From an uncultured Acetobacteraceae bacterium (lineage in GTDB: Bacteria > Pseudomonadota > Alphaproteobacteria > Acetobacterales > Acetobacteraceae): a DNA stretch of 35,608 nucleotides. The notes below the pieces were generated by a model that was given only the letters and a program-made list of their open reading frames with translations, was not told the origin of the DNA and searched no databases. The translations under genes were made by a program, and so were the position numbers. Of this stretch, positions 3,535 to 23,560 are shown piece after piece (the first letter of the stretch is position 1; every line of letters starts with the position of its first letter). The stretch spans positions 1 through 35,608 of the forward strand of contig CALMVT010000446.1 in the NCBI GenBank assembly GCA_937873175.1. Reading direction: 5' to 3'.

Positions 3535-3945
3535 TCAGTTGAGCGGGTAGGTCGTCCGGGTGCCCCGCGCCGCGACGCAGCCGCTGCCGGCGACCAGCAC
3601 GGACGCCAGCACTGCCGTCGCGCCGCAGAGGCCGGCAACGGCGCCGGACGGCACACGGGCGAACCGCCGGGCCAGAGAAGCGAAACACAGCGCATAGAGG
3701 CCGAACGGCCCGCTGACGCCGTGCAGCCAGGCGAGGGACCCCCGTTGAAGCTCGGCCAGCCGCCCCTTCGCCGCGAGCCAGCGGGCGCAGAGCGCCGCCA
3801 GAGCCGCGAAGCTGGTCGCGGTCAATTGCAATGGCGGCGCTTCAGCCGCGGCGCGGGACAGCAGGGCCAGGAACGCCCAAAGCCCGATCGCGCCGCAGCC
3901 GGCCAGGGTCGCAGCCGAAGTTGCGCCCGAAGCTCCGGCCGTCAG
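3535..3945 (-). pseudogene. Truncated EamA/DMT-superfamily transporter relic
   Basis: This 136-codon frame begins exactly at the end of phaB and has no ATG or GTG; a CTG at 3945 overlapping the phaB stop is the only plausible start. Its N-terminal half resembles the first helices of EamA/DMT exporters: GCGAIGLWAFLALLSR, then PPLQLTATSFA, then a second hydrophobic helix near 80-92. The third segment (about 93-120) still looks helical but has lost typical residues, for example an LCG where LWP is common. The frame stops after TTYPLN. Intact DMT proteins have about 280-300 residues and 10 helices; only about three or four are left, and no matching C-terminal half follows before dctA. I infer a decayed remnant. 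A short unusual membrane protein is possible but less likely without a start codon. Confidence 0.6.
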
Positions 3946-4664
3946 TACATGTGCTGCCCGCCGTTGATCGAGAGCGTTGATCCCGTGATGAAGTCGGCGT
4001 CGTCGCCCGTCAGGAACGCGACGCCGCGGGAAATGTCCTCGGCGTGGCCCAACCGACCCATCGGGATGCGGGCGATGATCTTGGTCAGCACGTCCGGCGG
4101 CACCGCGCGCACCATCTCGGTGTCCACATAGCCCGGCGCGATGGCGTTCACCGTAATGCCGAACCGCGCGCCTTCCTGGGCCAGCGCCTTGGTGAAGCCG
4201 TGGATGCCCGACTTCGCCGCGGCGTAGTTCACCTGGCCATACTGGCCCGCCTGGCCGTTGATGCTGCCGATGTTCACCACCCGGCCGAACTTCGCGCTCC
4301 GCATGCCGTCGAAGGTCAGCTTGCACAGGTTGAAGCAACTGCCGAGGTTGGTGTCCAGCACCGCGTCCCACATCTCGCGCGTCATGCGGGCCATGGTGGT
4401 ATCGCGGGTGATCCCGGCGTTGTTCACCAGGATCTCGATCGCGCCGTGCTCGTCCTTGATCTTCGCCACCGCGGCCTCGCACGCCGCGTAGTCCCCGGCG
4501 TCGAACTTGATGTGCGGAATCCCGGTTTCTTCCGTGAACGCCGCCGCGGCCGCGTCATTGCCGGCGTAGCTTGCCACCACCGTCCGCCCGGCCGCCTTCA
4601 GCGCCGTGCTGATGGCGGCGCCGATCCCGCGCGTTCCCCCCGTGACGAGTGCGACCCGTGCCAT
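3942..4664 (-). CDS. phaB: Acetoacetyl-CoA reductase (NADPH-type SDR)
   Basis: Reduces acetoacetyl-CoA to (R)-3-hydroxybutyryl-CoA, the PHB monomer. The 240-residue protein is a classical short-chain dehydrogenase/reductase: cofactor motif TGGTRGIG (8-15), NNAG (81-84), and catalytic Ser134, Tyr147 and Lys151 in GQVNYAAAKSG. The segments GITRDTTMARMT, NIGSINGQAGQYGQ and the C-terminal STLSINGGQHMY are typical of PhaB rather than FabG. A strong ribosome site (GGGGAGGA) precedes the ATG by about 8 nt. It lies 74 bp downstream of phaA on the same strand, the common phaAB order. The transporter relic starts at its stop codon. Confidence 0.96.
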   Translation of the reverse strand: MARVALVTGGTRGIGAAISTALKAAGRTVVASYAGNDAAAAAFTEETGIPHIKFDAGDYAACEAAVAKIKDEHGAIEILVNNAGITRDTTMARMTREMWDAVLDTNLGSCFNLCKLTFDGMRSAKFGRVVNIGSINGQAGQYGQVNYAAAKSGIHGFTKALAQEGARFGITVNAIAPGYVDTEMVRAVPPDVLTKIIARIPMGRLGHAEDISRGVAFLTGDDADFITGSTLSINGGQHMY

Positions 4665-4738: not shown

Positions 4739-5911
4739 TTAACGCTCCAGGCACATGGCGACGCCCATGCCGCCGCCGATGCACAGCGTGGCGAGGCCCT
4801 TCTTGGCGTCCCGCCGCGCCATCTCATGCAGCAACGTCACCAAGACGCGGGCACCGGACGCGCCGATGGGATGGCCGATGGCGATGGCGCCGCCGTTCAC
4901 ATTTACTTTACCGGCATCCCAGCCCATGTCCTTGTTTACCGCGCAGGCCTGGGCGGCGAAGGCTTCATTGGCCTCGATCAGATCCAGGTCGGCGACGCTC
5001 CAGCCGGCCCGTTGCAGCGCCTTGCGGCTGGACGGGATCGGCCCGGTGCCCATCACCGCAGGATCGACCCCGGCAGTAGCGAAACTGGCGATGCGGGCCA
5101 GCGGCTTCAGGCCGCGGCGCGCGGCCTCGGCCGCCGACATCACCACCAGGGCGGCCGCGCCGTCATTGATGCCGCTGGCGTTGCCGGCCGTCACCGTGCC
5201 GTCCTTGGAGAACGCCGGGCGCAGCTTGGCCATCAGCTCGGGCGTGCTGTCATGCCGGATATACTCGTCGTCCGTGACCACCGTATCGCCCTTGCGGCCC
5301 TTGATTGTCACCGGGGCGATCTCGTCCTTGAACCGCCCGGCCTTTTGCGCGGCGGACGCCCTTTGCTGGCTGCCGGCCGCGAACTCGTCCTGCTGCGCGC
5401 GCGTGATCTGGAACGCCGTCGCCACGTTCTCCGCCGTGGTGCCCATGTGGTAGCCGTGGAAGGCGTCCCACAGCCCATCTTTCAGCATGGTGTCCACCAG
5501 GCCCAGGTCGCCCATCTTGGTGCCGGAGCGCAGGTGCGCGGCGTGGGCGGACTGGCTCATGCTTTCCTGCCCGCCGGCGACCACGATGGCGCTTTCCCCG
5601 GTGCGGATCTGCTGCGCCGCCAGCGCCACGGTGCGCAGGCCCGAGCCGCACACCTGGTTGATGCCGAACGCCGTCTTGTCGTCCGGGATGCCGGCGGCGC
5701 GAGCGGCCTGCCGCGCCGGGTTCTGGCCCTGCGCCGCGGTCAGCACCTGGCCCAGGATCACCTCGTCCACCTCCGCCGGGTCCATGCCGATGCGCTCCAT
5801 CGCCGCCTTGAGCGCCACGGTGCCCAGCACGTGCGCGGGCGTCGCGGCGAAGGCCCCGTTGAAGCTGCCCACCGGGGTGCGGGCGGCGGACACGATGACG
5901 ACGTCTTCCAT
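4739..5911 (-). CDS. phaA: Acetyl-CoA acetyltransferase (beta-ketothiolase)
   Basis: Condenses two acetyl-CoA into acetoacetyl-CoA, the first committed step of PHB synthesis. The length of 390 residues is exactly typical for biosynthetic thiolases. Catalytic residues are all visible: nucleophile Cys88 in [14 protein letters not shown] at 314-317, His347 in the GHPIG motif (346-350), and Cys377 in LCIGGGMG. The N-terminus [19 protein letters not shown] is characteristic. An AGGGAG ribosome site lies about 10 nt before the ATG. It sits between the synthase gene (36 bp upstream) and phaB, so the cluster is probably one transcript reading leftward from the phaR divergent region. Confidence 0.96.
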
Positions 5912-5947: not shown

Positions 5948-7006
5948 TTAAAGGCCCCGCAACCAGGCCAGCAGCGGCGACCACAGCGCCGCTTCCGCCT
6001 GCGGGCCGACGGCCATCCCGATATGCCCGGCGGCCGGTTGATGCAAGACGGCGCCCGGGATCAGCCGGGCCAGCGGCAGGGCGCTGCCCGGCGGCACGAT
6101 GCGGTCCCGGCCCGGCGCCGCGACAAAGGCCGGCGCCGCCAGCGCCGCGGGATCGACCACCGCGCCGGCGACCCGCCACGCGCCCTGAGCCGGCGTGTTC
6201 GCGCCGTACCACCCGCCCAGCGCTTCCCGCGCAACCGGCGCTGCGAGTGGCACGCCGTCGTTCAGCCAGTCCTCCACCGCCACGAAATCCAGGGCGGCCG
6301 GGGCGGCCTGGTCCATGCGGCCGAAGGCGCGGTACTTCGCGGCGATGCTCCCGGGGTCCGGCAGGGCGAACAGCGCCTGCAGGCTGTCGATCGGCAGCGT
6401 GCCGGTGGTTGACAGCAGCGGCTCGAACTGCGGCAGCGCTTCGCCCAACCGCCGGGCCTGCGCCGGGTCGGCCGCGTGGAAATCCCACGGTGTGGCCAGC
6501 AGCGCCAAGCCGCGCACCAGGTCCGGCCGGCGCAGCGCCGCCGCCAGCGCCAGCAACCCACCCATGCAATAGCCCGCCAGCACCACGCGCCCGCCCACGG
6601 CCATCATCGCGCGCTCCAGCCGCCCGGCGATGTAGTCGGTCAGGGTGAAGCCGCGCTCGGCCATGCCGGGCCAGCCCCAGTCGAGCAGCAGCGGGCGCAC
6701 TCCCTGCCCGGCCAGCCAGCGCATCATCGACCGGCCCGGCGAAAGGTCGAGCACGTAGGCGCGATTGATCAAGCTCGGCACGAACAGCACGCCCGGGTCT
6801 CCTTCCTGGCCGTAGTCGAGCAGGCGCGTGTCGCCTTCCCGCCAAAGGCTGGGCGGGTCCGGCAGGGGGCGCTGCCACGGGTGGCGGCGGTAGGCGGCGA
6901 TGCCCGCGATCAGTGCGGCGTCAGCGGTCGGCGGGATCGGCGGCGCTTGCGGCGGCGCGGCGCTCCAGCTCGGCGACGCGGTCCAGCAGGTCGGCAATGG
7001 CGGCAT
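5948..7006 (-). CDS. phaC: Class III-like poly(R)-hydroxyalkanoate synthase, PhaC subunit
   Basis: Polymerises (R)-3-hydroxyacyl-CoA into PHA at the granule surface. With the ATG at 7006 the protein has 352 residues, matching class III PhaC (about 355) and not class I (about 580). It shows a Cys-type lipase box GYCMGG with Cys147, a probable Asp301 in GRDRIVPP, and His328 in AAGHIGM. These positions nearly equal the triad I recall for the Allochromatium vinosum class III enzyme (Cys149, Asp302, His331). SLINRAYVLDL and LLLDWGWPGMAERGFTL also match class III core motifs. The start is uncertain: the frame is open to 7318, with other ATGs at 7030, 7039, 7048 and 7105, but the region before about 6930 reads as a shadow of the overlapping upstream gene. 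An AAGGG lies 12 nt before 7006. It overlaps the PhaE-like gene, suggesting translational coupling. Confidence 0.85.
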   Translation of the reverse strand: MPPLPTCWTASPSWSAAPPQAPPIPPTADAALIAGIAAYRRHPWQRPLPDPPSLWREGDTRLLDYGQEGDPGVLFVPSLINRAYVLDLSPGRSMMRWLAGQGVRPLLLDWGWPGMAERGFTLTDYIAGRLERAMMAVGGRVVLAGYCMGGLLALAAALRRPDLVRGLALLATPWDFHAADPAQARRLGEALPQFEPLLSTTGTLPIDSLQALFALPDPGSIAAKYRAFGRMDQAAPAALDFVAVEDWLNDGVPLAAPVAREALGGWYGANTPAQGAWRVAGAVVDPAALAAPAFVAAPGRDRIVPPGSALPLARLIPGAVLHQPAAGHIGMAVGPQAEAALWSPLLAWLRGL

Positions 7007-7283
7007 CCCGGATGCCGGCCCTTGCGGCATCCCGGGCATCAGATGCATCAGCAGCGGCCGAGGCCCGCGCCGGCGGAACGGGCCGGGCCGATCCGGGCGC
7101 AGCATCACCGGGCATCCGCGGAGGCGGGAACGCTCCAGCCTGCGCCACCCCAGCCTGCGCCGCCGCGCGCAGCCATGCCTCCTGCACCTCCCGGTCCACG
7201 GCCACGGCGGCCCACTCGCTCTGCCAGATGGTGATCCAATCGGCGGCAAGGGTGCCCTCGAACGGGTTTGACGGATCGGCCAT
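6921..7283 (-). CDS. Short PhaE-like partner of the PHA synthase
   Basis: This 120-residue protein has no signal peptide or membrane helix. Its N-terminal part holds a Trp-rich amphipathic stretch (DWITIWQSEW near residues 15-24, then DREVQEAWLR). Its centre is Ala/Pro-rich, and the C-terminus (IADLLDRVAELERRAA) could form a short coiled coil. It is the first gene of the PHA cluster and overlaps the start of the class III-like PhaC. In class III enzymes a PhaE of about 40 kDa, and in class IV a PhaR subunit of about 20 kDa, accompanies a 350-residue PhaC. Position and Trp-rich start suggest this protein fills that role, but it is far shorter. The ATG at 7283 follows an in-frame TGA and lacks a good ribosome site. 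Function is inferred from context. Confidence 0.65.
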   Translation of the reverse strand: MADPSNPFEGTLAADWITIWQSEWAAVAVDREVQEAWLRAAAQAGVAQAGAFPPPRMPGDAAPGSARPVPPARASAAADASDARDAARAGIRDAAIADLLDRVAELERRAAASAADPADR

Positions 7284-7384
7284 AGCTTTTGCTCATAGGG
7301 TTGGCGTGATAACCGCAAGTGCGATTATCGCCCAATGTTGCAAGCGCGTGATACAGTCCGCTACATGCCGAAAGCGAGGGTTCC
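7284..7384. promoter_or_regulatory. Divergent promoter/operator region between phaE-like/phaC and phaR
   Basis: This 101-bp gap separates the leftward PHA biosynthesis genes from phaR. It contains an imperfect inverted repeat at 7304-7317 and 7320-7331 (GCGTGATAACCGCA against TGCGATTATCGC), suited to an operator or hairpin. For phaR, TTGCAA at 7338-7343 and TACATG at 7362-7367, 18 bp apart, form a weak -35/-10 candidate; a GAGGG at 7376-7380 serves as ribosome site. PhaR proteins are known to repress their own gene and phasin genes, so this is the natural place for a PhaR site. Promoter positions are inferred. Confidence 0.4.
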
Positions 7385-8158
7385 ATGCCGCAATCCGCTC
7401 CCCAAACCTACTCCGCGTCCGACACTGAGTCCGCCGGCCCGGCCGCTGCCCCGCAACAGCCCCCGGTGGTCGTCAAGAAGTATGCCAACCGCCGGCTGTA
7501 CAACACGGAAACGTCAAGCTACATCACCCTCGACAACCTCGCCGACATGATCCGCGCCGGCCGCGACTTCGTGGTTTACGACGCGAAGTCCGGGGAGGAC
7601 ATCACCCGCGGCGTGCTGACGCAGATCATCGTCGAGGAGGAAAGCAAGGGCACCTCCATGCTGCCCACCGCCTTTCTGCGCCAGCTCATCGGCTTCTACG
7701 GCGGCAGCCTGCAAGGCGTCGTGCCGCGCTACCTCGAACAGGCCATGGCCAGCTTCGCGCGCCAGCAGCAGCAACTGCGGCAGGTAGTGCAGCAGACCTT
7801 CAGCCCGTTCATGCCTGTGGGGGTGGAGGAGATGAGCCGACAGAACGTGGCGATGATCGAGCGGGCGATGAGCATGTTCAACCCGTTCCACCGCGGCAGC
7901 GCCCCCCTTCCGCCGGCACCGGAGGCGCATCCGGCGGACGCCCCGCCTCGGCAGGAAGCCGACCCGGAGGCGATCGGCCGGCTGCAGCAGGAGATCGACA
8001 GCCTGCGCAGCCAGCTTGCGGACGCCCGCGCCGAGGCGGCGATGGCCCAAGCGAACGCACCCGGCCGGAGCGTGTCACTGCCCGATCCAACGGCCGCGCC
8101 GCTGCGCACGGCCCGCCGCGAGCGTTCCGCCAAGAAGGACAGCCCGGCTCAGTCCTGA
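7385..8158 (+). CDS. phaR: Polyhydroxyalkanoate synthesis repressor PhaR
   Basis: A 257-residue DNA- and PHB-binding repressor. The N-terminal DNA-binding domain (PF07879 type) is unmistakable: KKYANRRLYNTETSSYIT followed by LDNLADMIRAGRDFVVYD and GEDITRGVLTQII (about 31-86). The PHB-accumulation domain (PF05233 type) follows, with LPTAFLRQLIGFYGGSLQ and VPRYLEQAMASF (about 97-125). A Gln-rich helical part and a C-terminal coiled coil (LQQEIDSLRSQLADARAEA) complete it. Known of the family: PhaR represses phasin and its own gene and is released when it binds nascent PHB granules. It is divergent from the synthase gene, so control of the shared region is expected. A disordered 28-residue Ala/Pro/Gln head precedes the domain. 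Confidence 0.95.
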   Translation: MPQSAPQTYSASDTESAGPAAAPQQPPVVVKKYANRRLYNTETSSYITLDNLADMIRAGRDFVVYDAKSGEDITRGVLTQIIVEEESKGTSMLPTAFLRQLIGFYGGSLQGVVPRYLEQAMASFARQQQQLRQVVQQTFSPFMPVGVEEMSRQNVAMIERAMSMFNPFHRGSAPLPPAPEAHPADAPPRQEADPEAIGRLQQEIDSLRSQLADARAEAAMAQANAPGRSVSLPDPTAAPLRTARRERSAKKDSPAQS

Positions 8159-8168
8159 ACCTATTTTT
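8136..8168 (+). terminator. Possible rho-independent terminator of phaR
   Basis: An interrupted hairpin overlaps the end of phaR: AGGACAGCC (8136-8144), a one-base loop, then GGCT-CA-GTCCT (8146-8156). Five T residues follow at 8164-8168. The two-base bulge, the tiny loop and the 7-nt gap to the T run make it a weak case. Confidence 0.3.
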
Positions 8169-8301
8169 GATCTTGGAAATGAGCTTTTCTTTAGCGGCAA
8201 TACGTTTAAAGTCACGCGGTGTTGACGTTTTGCGTGGGTACCGTAATGCTGCTTTCGCCCGATTGGGTGTAAGCCTTTTACATCATACCGTGGGGCGGGT
8301 C
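8159..8301 (+). promoter_or_regulatory. AT-richer leader/promoter region of the XRE regulator
   Basis: The 143 bp after phaR are clearly richer in A and T than the surrounding DNA. Candidate -35 elements are TTGACG at 8222-8227, with no good -10 at the right distance, and TTGGGT at 8263-8268, with TACCGT at 8286-8291 after 17 bp. The second pair would give a very short or absent leader before the GTG at 8302. The elements are weak and the assignment is tentative. Confidence 0.3.
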
Positions 8302-8739
8302 GTGAGTTCCAAGCAAGATACAGAAATTGTCCCAGGTAACGGCAAGGGGGCGGACGGGCCACCGGCCCGCGCCAGCATTGCGGACCATCATGCCGGGGCG
8401 CGCATCCGCGAGCGTCGTGTGATGCTGGGCCTGTCACAGCAACAGCTCGCCCAGATGATCGGCGTCACTTACCAGCAGGCGCACAAGTATGAGCGCGGCC
8501 TGAACCGCATCTCGGCCGGGCGCCTTTACGAGATCGCGCTGGTGCTGAACGTCCCCGTGAGCTGGTTCTTCGAGGGCCTGGATACCGAGGTGCCAACCGT
8601 TGAGCTGTCCCAGCGGCAGCGTATGTGCCTGGAACTCGCGCGCAACTTCGCCGCGATCGACAACCAGAAGCACCAGGAAGCGCTGAGCCAGATGGCACGC
8701 GCCCTCGCGGCGCAGTCGAACTCCGGCGGAGAGCCTTAG
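8302..8739 (+). CDS. XRE-family helix-turn-helix transcriptional regulator
   Basis: About 145 residues from the GTG at 8302 (VSSKQDTEIV). The HTH_3 domain covers roughly residues 30-92: GARIRERRVMLGLSQQQLA, then MIGVTYQQAHKYERGLNRIS, then AGRLYEIALVLNVPVSWFFE. This form, with QQAHKYERG in the recognition helix and a short helical tail (RQRMCLELARNFAAIDNQK), is widespread in alphaproteobacteria as a single-domain regulator. The frame is open to an ATG at 8167, but that extension is poorly conserved-looking and lies in the AT-richer promoter-like stretch, so I prefer the later start. Its stop overlaps the stop of the convergent DUF2125 gene. Targets are unknown. Confidence 0.85.
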   Translation: MSSKQDTEIVPGNGKGADGPPARASIADHHAGARIRERRVMLGLSQQQLAQMIGVTYQQAHKYERGLNRISAGRLYEIALVLNVPVSWFFEGLDTEVPTVELSQRQRMCLELARNFAAIDNQKHQEALSQMARALAAQSNSGGEP

Positions 8740-9722
8740 CGGCCGTCGGGCCAATCCAGCGCCGGTACCCGCAGCAGGGGAAAGCGCGCCACGGTCAGCA
8801 CGCCGCCGGCGATCTGCACGGGAACGACGGCGCTGCCGTCCGGCGTGGCCGCCGCGAGCAGGCCAAGTACCGTCTTGGCCGCCACGGCGGTCTGCCGTGT
8901 TAGCACCCCCGCCGCCGCAAGCTCGTCCAGCCCGGCAGCATAGCCACTCACGCGCACCGTCCCGTCCAGCGTCGGCTGCAGGGCGTCGTCCAACCCGATC
9001 CTGCCTTGGCCGACCGCACGCGCGCTGCCCATCGTGAGCGTGATGTCCGACAGGTGCACGGCGCCGCCGGCGTCGCGCCACGCCGTAGCCGCGTCGCGCG
9101 GGTTTTTGGCAATCGGGAGCGGCGGCGGCGTCGTCGCATGCAGCGCCATCAGGTCGATCATCTCCCCGCGCGTTTGGGCGAAGCCGGGCAGCTTGACGCG
9201 CCGGGCTGACAGGGCCAAGCCTTCCGGCCCAAGCCGCATTTGCAACGCCTCAGCCTCGAACAATCGGGCAACGCCGACCGCCGTGCCGGCCAGGGTGGCG
9301 GCGTCACCGGAGGCATCAAGCTGCAAGTCCCGCGACACGAGCGCGAGGGCCGGACCTGAGCCGAAGCGGATCTGCTGGCCCTCTGCCCGCACGCGCGCTG
9401 GGCCGGTGATCGCGCCGGACACCGACTCGGGCCAGCGCAGCGGCACGTCGATGGCCGCCCCCTCGGCCCGCCAGGCAAATCCGTCGGCCTCGACCGACGC
9501 AGGGCCGAACTGCAGCCCTGCGCGTCCCGGCCAGCCCTGCGGCCGGGCAGGCCCAAGGACCACGCGCCAGCCCTGCGCGCGCAACGCCTGCGCTTGTTCC
9601 CCCACCAGCGCATCCAAGCGGCGCACCGCGTCGAGCCAGACGACGCCATGCGCCAAGCCCGCCGCGACGAGCGCGCTGCACGCCCAGCGCAGCAGGTTCC
9701 GGGCGACGCGCCGACGGGCCAT
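8736..9722 (-). CDS. DUF2125 domain-containing protein
   Basis: A 328-residue protein beginning with an Arg-rich head and one hydrophobic helix (LLRWACSALVAAGLAHGVVW, about 10-29), then a large periplasmic part rich in beta-type segments with repeated LxLDASGDAATLAGT-like and LDGTVRVSGYAAGLDELAA-like stretches. Layout and length fit DUF2125, an alphaproteobacterial envelope family of unknown function. The ATG at 9722 lacks a clear ribosome site. Its TAA overlaps the XRE regulator's TAG by 4 bp in convergent orientation. No role can be read from the sequence beyond a membrane-anchored periplasmic location. Confidence 0.85.
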   Translation of the reverse strand: MARRRVARNLLRWACSALVAAGLAHGVVWLDAVRRLDALVGEQAQALRAQGWRVVLGPARPQGWPGRAGLQFGPASVEADGFAWRAEGAAIDVPLRWPESVSGAITGPARVRAEGQQIRFGSGPALALVSRDLQLDASGDAATLAGTAVGVARLFEAEALQMRLGPEGLALSARRVKLPGFAQTRGEMIDLMALHATTPPPLPIAKNPRDAATAWRDAGGAVHLSDITLTMGSARAVGQGRIGLDDALQPTLDGTVRVSGYAAGLDELAAAGVLTRQTAVAAKTVLGLLAAATPDGSAVVPVQIAGGVLTVARFPLLRVPALDWPDGR

Positions 9723-19325: not shown

Positions 19326-22106
19326 CTACCGCTTGGCCTTGATCCGGTCCCGCAGGGACCAGGCGGCGTCCCGGTCGTCGAAGTCGGCGGCGTCCTCCAG
19401 GATGGCGTCCAGGGTTGGCATCGCTTCCTCCGGCTTGCCCAGGGCGTTCAGGGCGCTGGCCAAGTGGAACTTGACGGTCCTGTCGTTGGGGCGCTGCCGT
19501 GCGGCTTCCTTCAGGAGCGGCAAGGCGTCCGCCGCAGCCCCTTCCTTGGTCATGATCCAGCCCAGGGTGTCCGACGTTTCCCCGGACGGCGCCAGCAGGT
19601 GGGCGCGCTGCGCGAGGCCGCGCGCTCGGGCATCGCCCTTGGACTGGTAGACCCAGGCGAGGTTGTTCAGCGCAATCGCGTCGTTCGGACGTTTGTCGAG
19701 CACGGCCTGCAGATGCTGCTCGGCTTCCTGCTTGCGGCCGGCGGAGATGTCGAGGGTCGCGAGCATCTGCGTCGCGTCGGTGTCATCGGGATGCTGCGCA
19801 AGCCACGCCTGCAACTGCTGCGCGGCCTGTTCCTGGCCACCGCCGGACGCCAGCGCGCCCGCGGTGCGCAGCACCAGCGCCGTTGAAGGGTTCGCCTTCA
19901 GCTCGGCGGCGAAGGCTTGGGCGGCGTCGCCGTAGCGGCGGGCGCCCATGAAGGTGTCGCCCTTGATGACCGAAGAAGCCGGCAGGTTGGCCGGGTCGCG
20001 CCGCAGCTCATCCGCCATTGCCAGCGCCCCGGCAATCCCCGACTTGCGCTGCGCCGCGAAGATCAGCGTGTTCATCATGCCGAGATTGCCCGGCGACAGC
20101 TTGAGTCCCTCCCTCAGTGCCGCCTCCGCGCCGTCCAGGTCGTTGGTGTTCAGCGTCAGCGCGACCAGCGCCCGCCGGGTTTCCAGATCGCCCGGCGTGC
20201 CCGCCAGGATCTGCCGGTAGGACGCCTTCGCGCCCTGCATGTCGCCGTCCGCGGCCTGCGCCCGCGCCTGCGCCGCGAGCAGCACCGGCGGCGGCGGGCC
20301 GCTTTCAAGCGCCTGGCGCAGCACGTCCAACGCCTTGCGCGGCTCCTTCGCCTTCACCTGCAGGTCCACCAGGGCCGCGGTCAGCGCCGGGTTGGACGGG
20401 GCCGCCGTCCGCGCGGCCTGCACGGCGGCAATTGCTTCCGGCAGCTTGTTGTCCCCCACCAGGGATTGCACGAGCGGCGTCAGCGCCTCCAGGTCGGCAT
20501 GGTTCTTGGCCAGCAGCCCGTTCAGCACCGCCTCCGCTTCCGGCTTGCGGTTCTGCAGGATCAGCACCTTGCCGAGGTTCACGCGGGCCGTGTCGGACGC
20601 GGGAAACGTGTCCGCCACCGCGGCGAACTGCGCCCGCGCGCCTTCCAGGTCCATGCGCGCCAGCTTAACCATGCCGGTCAGGATGCCGACCATCTCCGTT
20701 TCGCCGTTCTGCTGGCGCAAACGGTCGAGCGCGGCCTGCGCCTTTTCGACATCGCCCGCACCCAGCGCCGTGGCGACCAGCGCTTCCCCGGTGTCGGGCT
20801 GCCTCGGCTGGATATCCAGCGCCTTTTCCAGAGCCGCCGTGGCGCCTGGCATGTCGCCGAGCTGCATGCGGGTGGAGGCCAGGCGCGTCAGGATCTCGGG
20901 GCTGCTCGGCGCGAGCGCCGCCGCTTCCTGGAAGGTGCGGGACGCGAGCTGCGACTGGCCCTGGATGGCGTAGGCCCGGCCCAGCAGGTCCAGCGTTTCC
21001 GCCGTGTTCGCCCCGGCGGCAATCGCCTTGTTCAGCACCGCCACCGCGCGCTCCGGCCGCTGCGCGCCCAGCTCGACGCGGGCCAGCAGGCGCGCGCCGT
21101 CGAAATCGGTCGGCGCCTGCGCCACGTAGCGGAGCGCCGCGTCCACCGCCTGCTCGGTTTGGCCGAGGTTGGACTTGATCAGCGCCTGGAAATACAGCCC
21201 GCGCGGAAAGCGCTGGATGACCCCTGAAAGCTGCTCCAACGCGATGTCCGCGTCGGCGTAGCGTCCGGCGCGCACGAACAGCACCATGTTGAGATACACC
21301 GCCCCGGCGTTCTGCGGCTCGGCCGCCAGCACCTTGTTGACGTCGGCCCGCGCCTTCGCATCCTCCCCCGCCACGAGATACTGGTTGGCCCGCTCCAGCA
21401 GCATGCCGAGCGAACTGGGTGCCGCGGCAACCCCGCGCTCCAGGTATTCGAGCGCGCCGGCCTCGTTGCCCTTGGCGGCCAGCAACTGCCCTTTCAGCAC
21501 CAGCGCGTCCGCCCGCTTCTCGTTGAGCGCCAGCACGCGGTCCACCTGGCGCTCGGCGCCCGACAGGTCCTTTTCGATGACGAAGATCCGAGCCAGGGTC
21601 AGCGCGGCGTCCTGGTTGTCCGGCGCCAGCCGTTCCGCCTCGATCAGGCTGGCCCGCGCGTCGGCGTCGTTGCTCATGCCGATCTGCGCCATGGCGCGCA
21701 TGACGTGCGCCTTCGCCGCCTCGCCCGGCTCGGCATCCGGGTCCACCTTCACCTCGGACAGCACGTCCGCGAAACGCTGCTGCGCCAGATAGGACTGGGC
21801 CAGCAGCGGGAGGATCACCTTGCGGTCGCAGTTCAGCTCGCAAGCGATCTTCAGCTCCTTTTCCGCCGCGACCGGGTCGGAGGTCTGCAATTGGAGTTGC
21901 GCCAGGCGCAGGTGCGCCTCGGCGTTGCGCGGGTCGAACTTGACCGCGTTGCGCAGCTCGATCTGCGCGGCGCGCAGGTCGCCCTTCTGCAGCAGGATGC
22001 GCGCGTTCCGGATCGGGTCGCCGGTGTGGCCGAGCAGATACCACCCCCCGCCGGCGGCGCCGGCCACGGCAACCAGGGCGAGGGCAGGAAGCAGGAGCTT
22101 TCTCAT
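19326..22106 (-). CDS. prsT: XrtA/PEP-CTERM system TPR-repeat protein PrsT
   Basis: A 926-residue protein built almost entirely of tetratricopeptide repeats (for example RNARILLQKGDLRAAQIELR, NAEAHLRLAQLQLQ, DAIALNNLAWVYQSKGDARA). Length, start and position after prsR match the TIGR02917 family. The start at 22106 overlaps the prsR stop as ATGA. The N-terminus ([20 protein letters not shown]) is a membrane anchor or signal sequence, but there is no Cys at the expected lipobox; the first Cys is near residue 87. The family is tied to exosortase/PEP-CTERM loci with an undefined role, probably scaffolding in the periplasm. It is the last gene of the minus-strand prs operon. Confidence 0.93.
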   Translation of the reverse strand: MRKLLLPALALVAVAGAAGGGWYLLGHTGDPIRNARILLQKGDLRAAQIELRNAVKFDPRNAEAHLRLAQLQLQTSDPVAAEKELKIACELNCDRKVILPLLAQSYLAQQRFADVLSEVKVDPDAEPGEAAKAHVMRAMAQIGMSNDADARASLIEAERLAPDNQDAALTLARIFVIEKDLSGAERQVDRVLALNEKRADALVLKGQLLAAKGNEAGALEYLERGVAAAPSSLGMLLERANQYLVAGEDAKARADVNKVLAAEPQNAGAVYLNMVLFVRAGRYADADIALEQLSGVIQRFPRGLYFQALIKSNLGQTEQAVDAALRYVAQAPTDFDGARLLARVELGAQRPERAVAVLNKAIAAGANTAETLDLLGRAYAIQGQSQLASRTFQEAAALAPSSPEILTRLASTRMQLGDMPGATAALEKALDIQPRQPDTGEALVATALGAGDVEKAQAALDRLRQQNGETEMVGILTGMVKLARMDLEGARAQFAAVADTFPASDTARVNLGKVLILQNRKPEAEAVLNGLLAKNHADLEALTPLVQSLVGDNKLPEAIAAVQAARTAAPSNPALTAALVDLQVKAKEPRKALDVLRQALESGPPPPVLLAAQARAQAADGDMQGAKASYRQILAGTPGDLETRRALVALTLNTNDLDGAEAALREGLKLSPGNLGMMNTLIFAAQRKSGIAGALAMADELRRDPANLPASSVIKGDTFMGARRYGDAAQAFAAELKANPSTALVLRTAGALASGGGQEQAAQQLQAWLAQHPDDTDATQMLATLDISAGRKQEAEQHLQAVLDKRPNDAIALNNLAWVYQSKGDARARGLAQRAHLLAPSGETSDTLGWIMTKEGAAADALPLLKEAARQRPNDRTVKFHLASALNALGKPEEAMPTLDAILEDAADFDDRDAAWSLRDRIKAKR

Positions 22107-23560
22107 CGATTCCAGCCTGTGTTCGGGGAAACAGCGTCTTGCGCGGCGGCGTCTTCGGCGCACGACTTGTCGGTGCCTGGGGCGTCGGCGCCGTCCGCCG
22201 TCAGGCCGTGCGCTTCCAGCAGCGCGTAAAGCGTCGGGCGGCTGATGCCGAGCAGGCGCGCGGCGGTGGCCAGCGTCCCGTCGCTGCGGGCCAGCGCGCG
22301 CTGCACCACGTCGCGCTCGGCCCGCGCGCGGGCGGTTCGCAGGTCGTAGGCCGTCATGTCCTCCTGGCCCGGCGCCAATTCCAGGTCGGCCGCGGAAACC
22401 AGCCGCCCCTCGCTCATCAGGACCGCGCGCTTCACCCGGTTTTCCAGCTCCCGGATGTTGCCGGGCCAAGGGTGGGCGGCGAGCGCCGCCATCGCGTCCT
22501 CGGCGAAGCCGCGCACCGGGCGGCCGAACTCCTGGGCGAAGCGGGCCAGGAAATGCCGGGCCAGCAGCAGCGTGTCGCCGCGGCGCTCGCGCAGCGGCGG
22601 GATGCGCAGCGTCACCGGGTTCAGGCGGTAGAACAAGTCGCCGCGGAACCGGCCCCCGTCCACCTGGTCTTGCAGAGGTTGGTTCGTCGCCGACACCACG
22701 CGCACGTCCACCTGGATCGGCTGCCGCCCGCCGATGCGCTCCACCCGCTGGTCCTGCAGGAAGCGCAGCAGCTTGACCTGAAGCGTGTGCGGCAGGTCGC
22801 CGATCTCGTCGAGAAAAAGCGTGCCCTTGTTCGCCAGCTCGATCTTGCCGAGCGTCTGCTTCACCGCGCCGGTGAAGGCGCCACGCTCATGGCCGAACAG
22901 CTCGCTTTCCAGCAGCGCCTCAGGGATCGCGCCGCAGTTGATCGCGATGAAAGGCTGCCGCGCCCGCGGTCCGAGGTCGTGCAGCGCCCGGGCCAGCGCC
23001 TCCTTGCCGGTGCCGCTTTCGCCGAGCAGCAGGGCGGACACGTTGGCCGCGGCCAGCTTCTCGATGTCGCGGCACACCTTGAGCATGCCGGGGTCGGAGG
23101 TGACGATGTTCTTGATCGGCGAGGGCGCGGGCGTGTCCGACAAGCGCCGGTTCTCATCCTCCAAGGTGCGCAGGCGCAGGCTGCGCTCGACGATGGTGCC
23201 GAGCATGCCGATATCGATCGGCTTTTCGCAGAAGTCGTAGGCCCCGGCGGCGACCGCCCGCAGCGCGTGCGCCCGGTCGCCGTGGCTGGTGGCGACGATC
23301 ACCTTGGTGTTGGGCGCTTGCCGGGCCAGGCTGTCCAGGGTCGCGAACCCCTCGCTCACGCCGTCCGGGTCGGGCGGCAGGCCGAGATCCATGATGGCGA
23401 CCGCCGGACGCTCCTTTTGCGCGACGGCCAGCGCCTGCAGCCGGGTGTGGGCGAACACGACCTCGCAGGACGGGAAGGCCCAGCGGTATTGGCTGCACAG
23501 GCCCACGTCATCCTCGACGATGAGCAGCTTCGGAAGCAGCTTCGGCACCGGCGCGATCAC
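22103..23560 (-). CDS. prsR: PEP-CTERM-box response regulator PrsR (sigma-54 activator)
   Basis: A 485-residue NtrC-type regulator. From the GTG at 23560, chosen because GTGA overlaps the prsK stop: a receiver domain with [14 protein letters not shown], phospho-acceptor Asp58 in [13 protein letters not shown] and Lys113 in FCEKPID. An AAA+ domain follows with Walker A GESGTGKE (180-187), the sigma-54 contact loop GAFTGA (227-232) and [10 protein letters not shown] (Walker B). A Fis-type HTH ends it ([20 protein letters not shown]). The family (TIGR02915) pairs with PrsK and RpoN to control PEP-CTERM genes and exopolysaccharide. The GAFTGA loop indicates sigma-54-dependent promoters, consistent with GG-N10-GC sites in the locus. 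Confidence 0.96.

Follow-up and report, generated by a model that had tools for sequence, protein, structure and literature searches.

The window analyzed here, a stretch of 35,608 nucleotides from an uncultured Acetobacteraceae bacterium (6.39-Mb genome, 624 contigs, completeness 99.4%), carries on its minus strand, from 7283 down to 3942, a 120-aa gene, a short phaC, a thiolase-type gene and a reductase-type gene, with phaR on the opposite strand from 7385. This arrangement raises the question of whether the short PhaC works together with the small protein encoded in front of it and, if so, where such an enzyme would stand among the known PHA synthases. We consider it probable that the two proteins form a two-subunit PHA synthase, widespread in Alphaproteobacteria and not recognized as such, in which the small partner acts like PhaE, PhaR or the class I N-domain.

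The gene pair and its neighborhood

The small gene (6921 to 7283, minus strand) encodes the candidate accessory subunit and overlaps phaC (5948 to 7048, minus strand), the product of which counts 366 aa from the ATG at 7048 or 352 aa from the ATG at 7006. Next after phaC are open reading frames for a PhaA-type acetyl-CoA acetyltransferase (4739 to 5911, minus strand) and a PhaB-type acetoacetyl-CoA reductase (3942 to 4664, minus strand), both named by transfer from matching Azospirillum genes, in the case of the reductase phbB with 70% identity, without a profile scan of their own. The divergent gene on the plus strand (7385 to 8158) encodes a PhaR-type PHA synthesis repressor that scores 153.0 bits against TIGR01848 (NCBIfam cut-off 109.45) and matches Pfam PF07879 and PF05233, confirming the sequence-only reading on this point. 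This repressor is presumably unrelated to the class IV PhaR subunit, with which it shares only the name. Judging by the gene arrangement, the stretch between the divergent genes (7284 to 7384) may be a regulatory region shared by phaR and the small-phaC-phaA-phaB unit. On the strand of phaR, the next gene encodes a helix-turn-helix regulator (HTH_3, 56.1 bits; 8167 to 8739), and the PHA region is flanked by a DUF4175 gene (492.2 bits; 28 to 2097) and a DUF2125 gene (113.5 bits; 8736 to 9722).

The short phaC and the overlapping 120-aa gene constitute a real, conserved and widespread pair. To survey it, a profile was built from the window's small protein and 31 relatives (96-209 aa, with starts picked by rule) and run on the open reading frames around 114 loci, one of 115 loci having been dropped since most of its phaC is absent (L096); removal of eight duplicates left 106 distinct short-phaC loci. 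The small gene is found upstream in 104 of these (profile E up to 0.01), including all 72 distinct named loci, none of which was in the profile seed, and the three weakest matches (20.0, 25.4 and 40.3 bits) sit at contig ends. A sample across the class gave the small gene in 27 of 29 loci, 21 of these 27 being new; the two misses are a locus with only 42 nt of upstream sequence (L249) and one that is the same place as L090 (L252). The pair pointed out in the sequence-only reading thus recurs across alphaproteobacteria.

The small protein is also largely confined to this place. Searching the window's protein in 60 genomes gave matches in 26, of which 22 match at this locus and four elsewhere and weakly (best E 6.8e-4). 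A wider profile recovered 81 of 81 at the locus by construction, because it contained most of those sequences; its scores away from the locus serve as the control, and among 9,300 ORFs outside the expected place the best was 24.2 bits and the next 15.0. No small gene precedes the two divergent short PhaCs L090 and L091, so that the partner may be dispensable there or encoded elsewhere. At L091, phaC has the PhaR gene as its immediate upstream neighbor.

The remaining neighbors vary. Divergent phaR is found upstream in 88 of the 91 loci with at least 1,500 nt of upstream sequence. Of 97 loci with enough sequence, 68 have PhaA as the next gene, eight have it somewhat further away and 21 show none; PhaB occurs within 4 kb and in the same orientation in no more than 16 of 86 loci long enough to judge. 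The full operon of the window is therefore a less common form, and the constant part is phaR - small - phaC.

Codon statistics show the small ORF to be coding. When 37 sequences are compared over residues 12-40, codon positions 1, 2 and 3 differ by 0.314, 0.228 and 0.455, and amino-acid identity is 0.64 in frame but only 0.42 and 0.41 when the remaining frames are read. A chance frame or a by-product of the overlap is rejected on three grounds: this codon structure, the near absence of profile matches away from the locus, and the position of the small gene, which in at least 60 of the 104 loci ends 40-58 nt before PhaC codon 43. The long overlap of the window is thus not general. In the same 60 or more loci, PhaC may hence start after the small gene. 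In the window, the phaC frame offers ATG starts at 7048, 7006 and other positions; since residues 1-34 are disordered in the structure model (pLDDT <50) and conservation begins only at residue 43 of the longer form (window 6922), at the stop of the small gene, the true start is uncertain.

The short PhaC among the synthase classes

The short PhaC belongs to the PhaC superfamily, having an alpha/beta-hydrolase fold and a Cys-Asp-His triad. The 352-residue synthase with Cys147, Asp301 and His328 described from the sequence alone corresponds to the start at 7006, these residues being Cys161, Asp315 and His342 when counted from 7048. They are invariant in a 20-row alignment extending to other families, and in a set of 41 sequences (the window and 40 of the 72 named loci) Cys and Asp are conserved in 41/41 and His in 40/41. 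One short PhaC (L099:5112-6080) has Gln in place of the catalytic His (GQVGM versus GHIGM), next to an intact small partner gene. Pfam recognizes an alpha/beta hydrolase (43.8 bits), and the closest solved relatives by sequence are class I-type PHA synthases (58.9 bits). A structure model (41 sequences) reached a pLDDT of 88.3 and, when used as a Foldseek query, retrieved PHA synthases at all of ranks 1-15 (TM by query length 0.56-0.66, rmsd 4.3-8.4).

Assignment to an existing class is less straightforward. The top NCBIfam match is the class III model TIGR01836, at 121.6 bits against a cut-off of 365.3, followed by class I at 81.6 bits against 622.65. A full class I N-terminal domain is not found, PF07167 (173 positions) matching over positions 148-173 only (20.7-21.8 bits, cut-off 23.7). 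In a phylogenetic tree of 51 rows, comprising 23 of the 106 short PhaCs, 17 of 34 class III-like and 11 class I sequences, with class IV absent, the short PhaCs form one group (SH-aLRT 98), class III another (94) and class I a third (100), as obtained by a quick search with SH-aLRT only and no bootstrap. The long branches of L091 and L092 meet in this tree, and several rows, including that of the window, have an odd letter make-up. The class III-like group holds haloarchaeal and rhizobial PhaCs and a further PhaC of the source genome (contig C449); the short PhaCs do not group with it but make up a clade of their own beside class III.

The sequence-only reading had taken the pair for a class III-type synthase with a very short PhaE-like subunit, a membership which the profile score, the separate clade and a partner without a TIGR01834 match do not sustain. 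Its premise of a PhaE of about 40 kDa is too strict as well: the review in PMC6403647 gives, in the part available, a range of 20-40 kDa, and PhaEs read for comparison count 182 aa in Haloferax and 232 aa in Rhizobium. Such short PhaEs, together with TIGR01836 as the top NCBIfam match and the resemblance of the small protein's coil to the PhaE C-terminal coil, speak for an ordinary class III PhaEC synthase with a shrunken PhaE. We nevertheless judge this improbable, as the PhaC reaches only 121.6 of the 365.3 bits, neither the small protein nor seven diverse relatives match TIGR01834, and the two groups are separated in the tree (98 and 94; quick search, no bootstrap).

Genes of this kind are common. 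With a short-PhaC profile, 116 of 289 genomes sampled across Alphaproteobacteria match at 246 bits or more, a count that leaves out genomes matching at 143-207 bits; four of the 116 matches contain an internal stop. By the same profile, the C449 PhaC scores 167 bits and frames of at least 600 aa score at most 117. The best matches of the window's short PhaC include those in the named cultured Acetobacteraceae genera Roseomonas, Elioraea, Rhodopila, Belnapia, Acidocella and Acidisoma, besides further members of the family. In 33 of 60 genomes searched, source included, a short PhaC like that of the window scores at least 187 bits. In one genome (G002) the short PhaC is a fragment cut by the contig end.

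Full-length class I genes accompany the short PhaC in 30 of these 33 genomes, and the pair therefore need not be the main synthase. In the other three (G007, G029 and G042; drafts, 90-93% complete), no PhaC other than the short one was found. The source genome itself has two full-length class I-type genes, with frames of 640 aa (C548) and 719 aa (C136) that match PF07167 over positions 1-173 and 2-173, which disposes of the idea that class I is absent there. One half of the refuting condition named in the sequence-only reading, a full-length class I phaC elsewhere in the genome together with an inactive short enzyme, is thereby present. It also has, on C449 (approximately 20,700-22,200; L093/L179), a short PhaC grouping with class III in the tree and, directly upstream, a PhaE-like gene with a 354-aa frame that scores 66.0 bits against TIGR01834, under the cut-off of 154.95. 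The same search gave no TIGR01834 match at the window locus, and among the 60 genomes a clear PhaE match was obtained only in the source genome and in G003.

These data also bear on a further reading, in which the short PhaC is a Cys hydrolase, either a depolymerase or a thioesterase, acting on PHA or acyl-CoA and no longer polymerizing. The label 'alpha/beta fold hydrolase', which is all that the listings of Azospirillum plasmids say of the gene, and the class I genes in 30 of 33 genomes would suit it. Given that the nucleophile Cys is present in 41/41 sequences, that the nearest folds are synthases, that the gene occupies the phaC place beside phaR and phaA and that it is the sole PhaC found in three draft genomes, we regard loss of polymerase activity as very improbable.

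In Azospirillum, the locus shows phaR, then a gap, and after it the genes for the 'alpha/beta fold hydrolase', the thiolase and phbB. The small ORF starts within this gap, extends into the hydrolase gene as annotated and has no entry of its own; since the gene table is incomplete, a missing entry does not prove that the small ORF is unannotated. In A. brasilense (L216:5225-6000), the listed hydrolase start lies inside the small ORF and is therefore probably too far upstream.

The small protein: build, possible origin and proposed role

The 120-aa protein consists of a helix with a LAADWITIWQSEW motif, a Pro/Ala linker and a C-terminal coil, in agreement with the overlapping upstream gene with a Trp-rich start and a short coiled coil that had been described from the sequence; the frame at 6921-7283 on the minus strand is present and conserved. 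The family consensus reads LA-D/R-W/Y-I-x-LWQ-S/D-E/Q-L-AA-x-A-x-D-P/R-E in the N-part, followed by a variable Pro/Ala linker, a coil of the form L-x-R-R-x-AELERRLAxLE and often a basic tail. AF2 predicts helices at residues 7-29, 31-51 and 80-115 and no overall fold (pTM 0.37).

Profile searches do not place the protein in a known family. The window protein has no match in Pfam and NCBIfam at E up to 1, and seven diverse relatives, searched to an E of 10, gave unrelated matches only (best 20.4 bits) and none to a PHA family. At these same thresholds the PhaE model TIGR01834 is matched by neither. No PhaR-subunit family was among the matches of the small protein and its relatives in these libraries, which probably include a model for it.

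Profile comparisons yield two leads as to descent, neither of them firm. The first concerns the coil. The C-part aligned with the PhaE C-terminal coil scores 26.3, which 0/100 column shuffles reach, with an HH probability of 78.8%, the highest among the origin comparisons. The PhaE C-domain against the small family scores 30.1 (maximum of 200 shuffles 17.6; reversed PhaE 20.1) and, in a wider set, 28.7 (0/60 shuffles). With the whole PhaE only the coil aligned (HH probability 32.8%), the PhaE N-terminus scored 12.0 (3/60 shuffles), and the N-motif against the PhaE C-domain was near chance (35/200 shuffles, and 4/100 in a second comparison). Coils match easily, as illustrated by the window's PhaR repressor frame, which scores 11.3 bits with the small-protein profile. 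The second lead is the W motif, exemplified by DYMTLWQ in the C548 synthase of the source genome and DWITIWQ in the small protein. Against the class I N-domain, the N-motif scores 18.0 (1/150 shuffles; HH probability 3.8%), the small family 22.2 (0/60; 4.5%) and the coil part 10.6 (10/60). The small protein may descend from PhaE, through the coil, or from the class I N-domain, through the W motif.

Its role could also lie outside the synthase. Within the PHA locus it might serve as a minimal phasin, help to target granules or tether them to the nucleoid, or cooperate with the PhaR repressor, its gene being transcribed together with that of a short PhaC that works by itself. The predicted helix-linker-coil build and the basic tail of many relatives would suit a tether, two short PhaCs (L090 and L091) lack a small neighbor, and the accessible part of PMC9999600 implies that Rhodospirillum rubrum PhaC1, a probable relative, is active. 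On the other hand, the small gene tracks the short PhaC almost one to one (104/106), 22 of the 26 genomes matching the small protein do so at this locus, the other four being weak, and a separate partner subunit has precedent in classes III and IV (PMC6403647, part available). We therefore consider such a role unlikely, while rating it above the other alternatives.

In the two-subunit synthase that we favor, the short PhaC would be the catalytic subunit, an alpha/beta-hydrolase core lacking the class I N-terminal domain, in which the growing chain would be held on Cys161, Asp315 and His342 being the other two residues of the triad. The substrate polymerized would be (R)-3-hydroxybutyryl-CoA made by PhaA and PhaB. 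The 120-aa protein may supply in trans the role of the class I N-domain, PhaE or PhaR, its Trp-rich N-terminal helix docking on PhaC and its C-terminal coil pairing subunits or anchoring the complex on the granule, with the flexible Pro/Ala linker joining the two ends. In the presence of PHA, the divergently encoded PhaR would cease to repress the operon. Catalysis on hydroxyacyl-CoA, a physical complex, activation and the roles given to the two ends of the small protein are what we infer from a core-only PhaC with a small helical upstream partner, an arrangement that, by analogy, fits the logic of classes I, III and IV with a smaller partner.

A stronger version can be offered only tentatively. 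It would see the pair as a separate synthase class, in which the catalytic subunit, about 330-370 aa long, depends on a partner of about 10-20 kDa, the N-helix of which stands in for the class I LWQ motif and the coil for that of PhaE. Encoded next to phaR in a large fraction of Alphaproteobacteria, this class would have been overlooked because of the hydrolase label and a partner without a family model.

Published relatives and known systems

No paper naming such a small protein was found in a literature search poor in subscription journals, and the accessible parts of PMC13038957 and PMC11762602 held nothing deciding the case. A 2014 meeting abstract (PMC4210832) describes, from Gluconacetobacter diazotrophicus, a class III-like PHB synthase of 328 aa with phaR and 'hypothetical proteins' close by. 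It resembles the window's PhaC in length and in its position near PhaR and an acetoacetyl-CoA reductase gene, and probably belongs to the same clade; the abstract differs in speaking only of 'hypothetical proteins' as neighbors and in taking the PhaR repressor for the activating subunit.

R. rubrum PhaC1 (Rru_A0275) probably belongs to the short-PhaC clade as well. According to the parts available of the respective papers, it is encoded in a phaC1-phaA-phaB operon (PMC4026134), the cluster regulator Rru_A0278 lies two gene numbers away (PMC11268599) and a phaC1 primer encodes VEDWLND (PMC9999600), all as expected of a relative, whereas a small subunit is not mentioned in these portions of the three papers. 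Exact matches to the R. rubrum primer sites occur in none of 221 loci, among which R. rubrum is not known to be. Identities between PhaC1 and its paralogues are low (14.3, 18.4 and 50.2% for three pairs, not specified in the portion of PMC4026134 available). In the same portion, PHA is reported to rise only about 1.4-fold when PhaC1 was increased more than 50-fold; a limiting partner would be consistent with this, as would other explanations. In the available text of PMC9999600, phaC1 transcripts were undetectable and PhaC2 activity is stated to be lower than that of the other two PhaCs; if PhaC1 was active when assayed alone, an obligate partner is unlikely. Under CO, conditions other than those giving undetectable phaC1 transcripts, Rru_A0275 transcripts were measurable (PMC11268599, part available).

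For A. brasilense, the part available of PMC10383645 reports a phbC mutant without PHB and describes a phbCAB operon on plasmid 4 of a sister strain. If that operon is the pair and is present in Sp7, the pair is insufficient there. We rejected this knock-out as support for the pair, as phbC lies on the strand opposite phaAB and phbCAB is separate (PMC10383645, same part).

The known scheme distinguishes four classes of PHA synthases by the build of PhaC, the partner and the substrates, and the pair, if our reading is true, would be a fifth arrangement. PHA loci in Alphaproteobacteria would then be widely mislabeled, and expressing such a phaC without its small gene may fail. The partner, below both PhaE (20-40 kDa) and PhaR (22 kDa) in size as given in the available part of PMC6403647, would offer a convenient means of studying the effect that PhaE, PhaR and the class I N-domain have on the enzyme.

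Among the known systems, the class III PhaE-PhaC synthase (TIGR01834/TIGR01836), which requires PhaE (PMC6403647, part available), shares with the window's pair a short catalytic subunit with a Cys-Asp-His triad, a partner gene directly upstream in the examples compared and a partner with a C-terminal coil. It differs in that the window's PhaC scores far below the class III cut-off and falls in a separate clade, and in that its partner has no PhaE profile match and is only 120 aa long, the shortest PhaEs compared having 182 and 232 aa. The class IV PhaR-PhaC synthase of Bacillus likewise combines a short PhaC with a small partner, the PhaR subunit of 22 kDa (PMC6403647, part available), the window's partner being even smaller in this comparison by description rather than by sequence. 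Finally, the class I synthase, a single chain of about 60 kDa, has in common with the pair the GYCxGG nucleophile box and the PhaR repressor, and its N-domain carries a DYMTLWQ-type motif that resembles DWITIWQ in the small protein, though at an HH probability of only about 4%. The N-terminal part is reportedly needed for dimer formation in class I, its exact role being called elusive in the part available of PMC10867992, and it is this N-domain that the short PhaC, unlike the class I enzyme, lacks.
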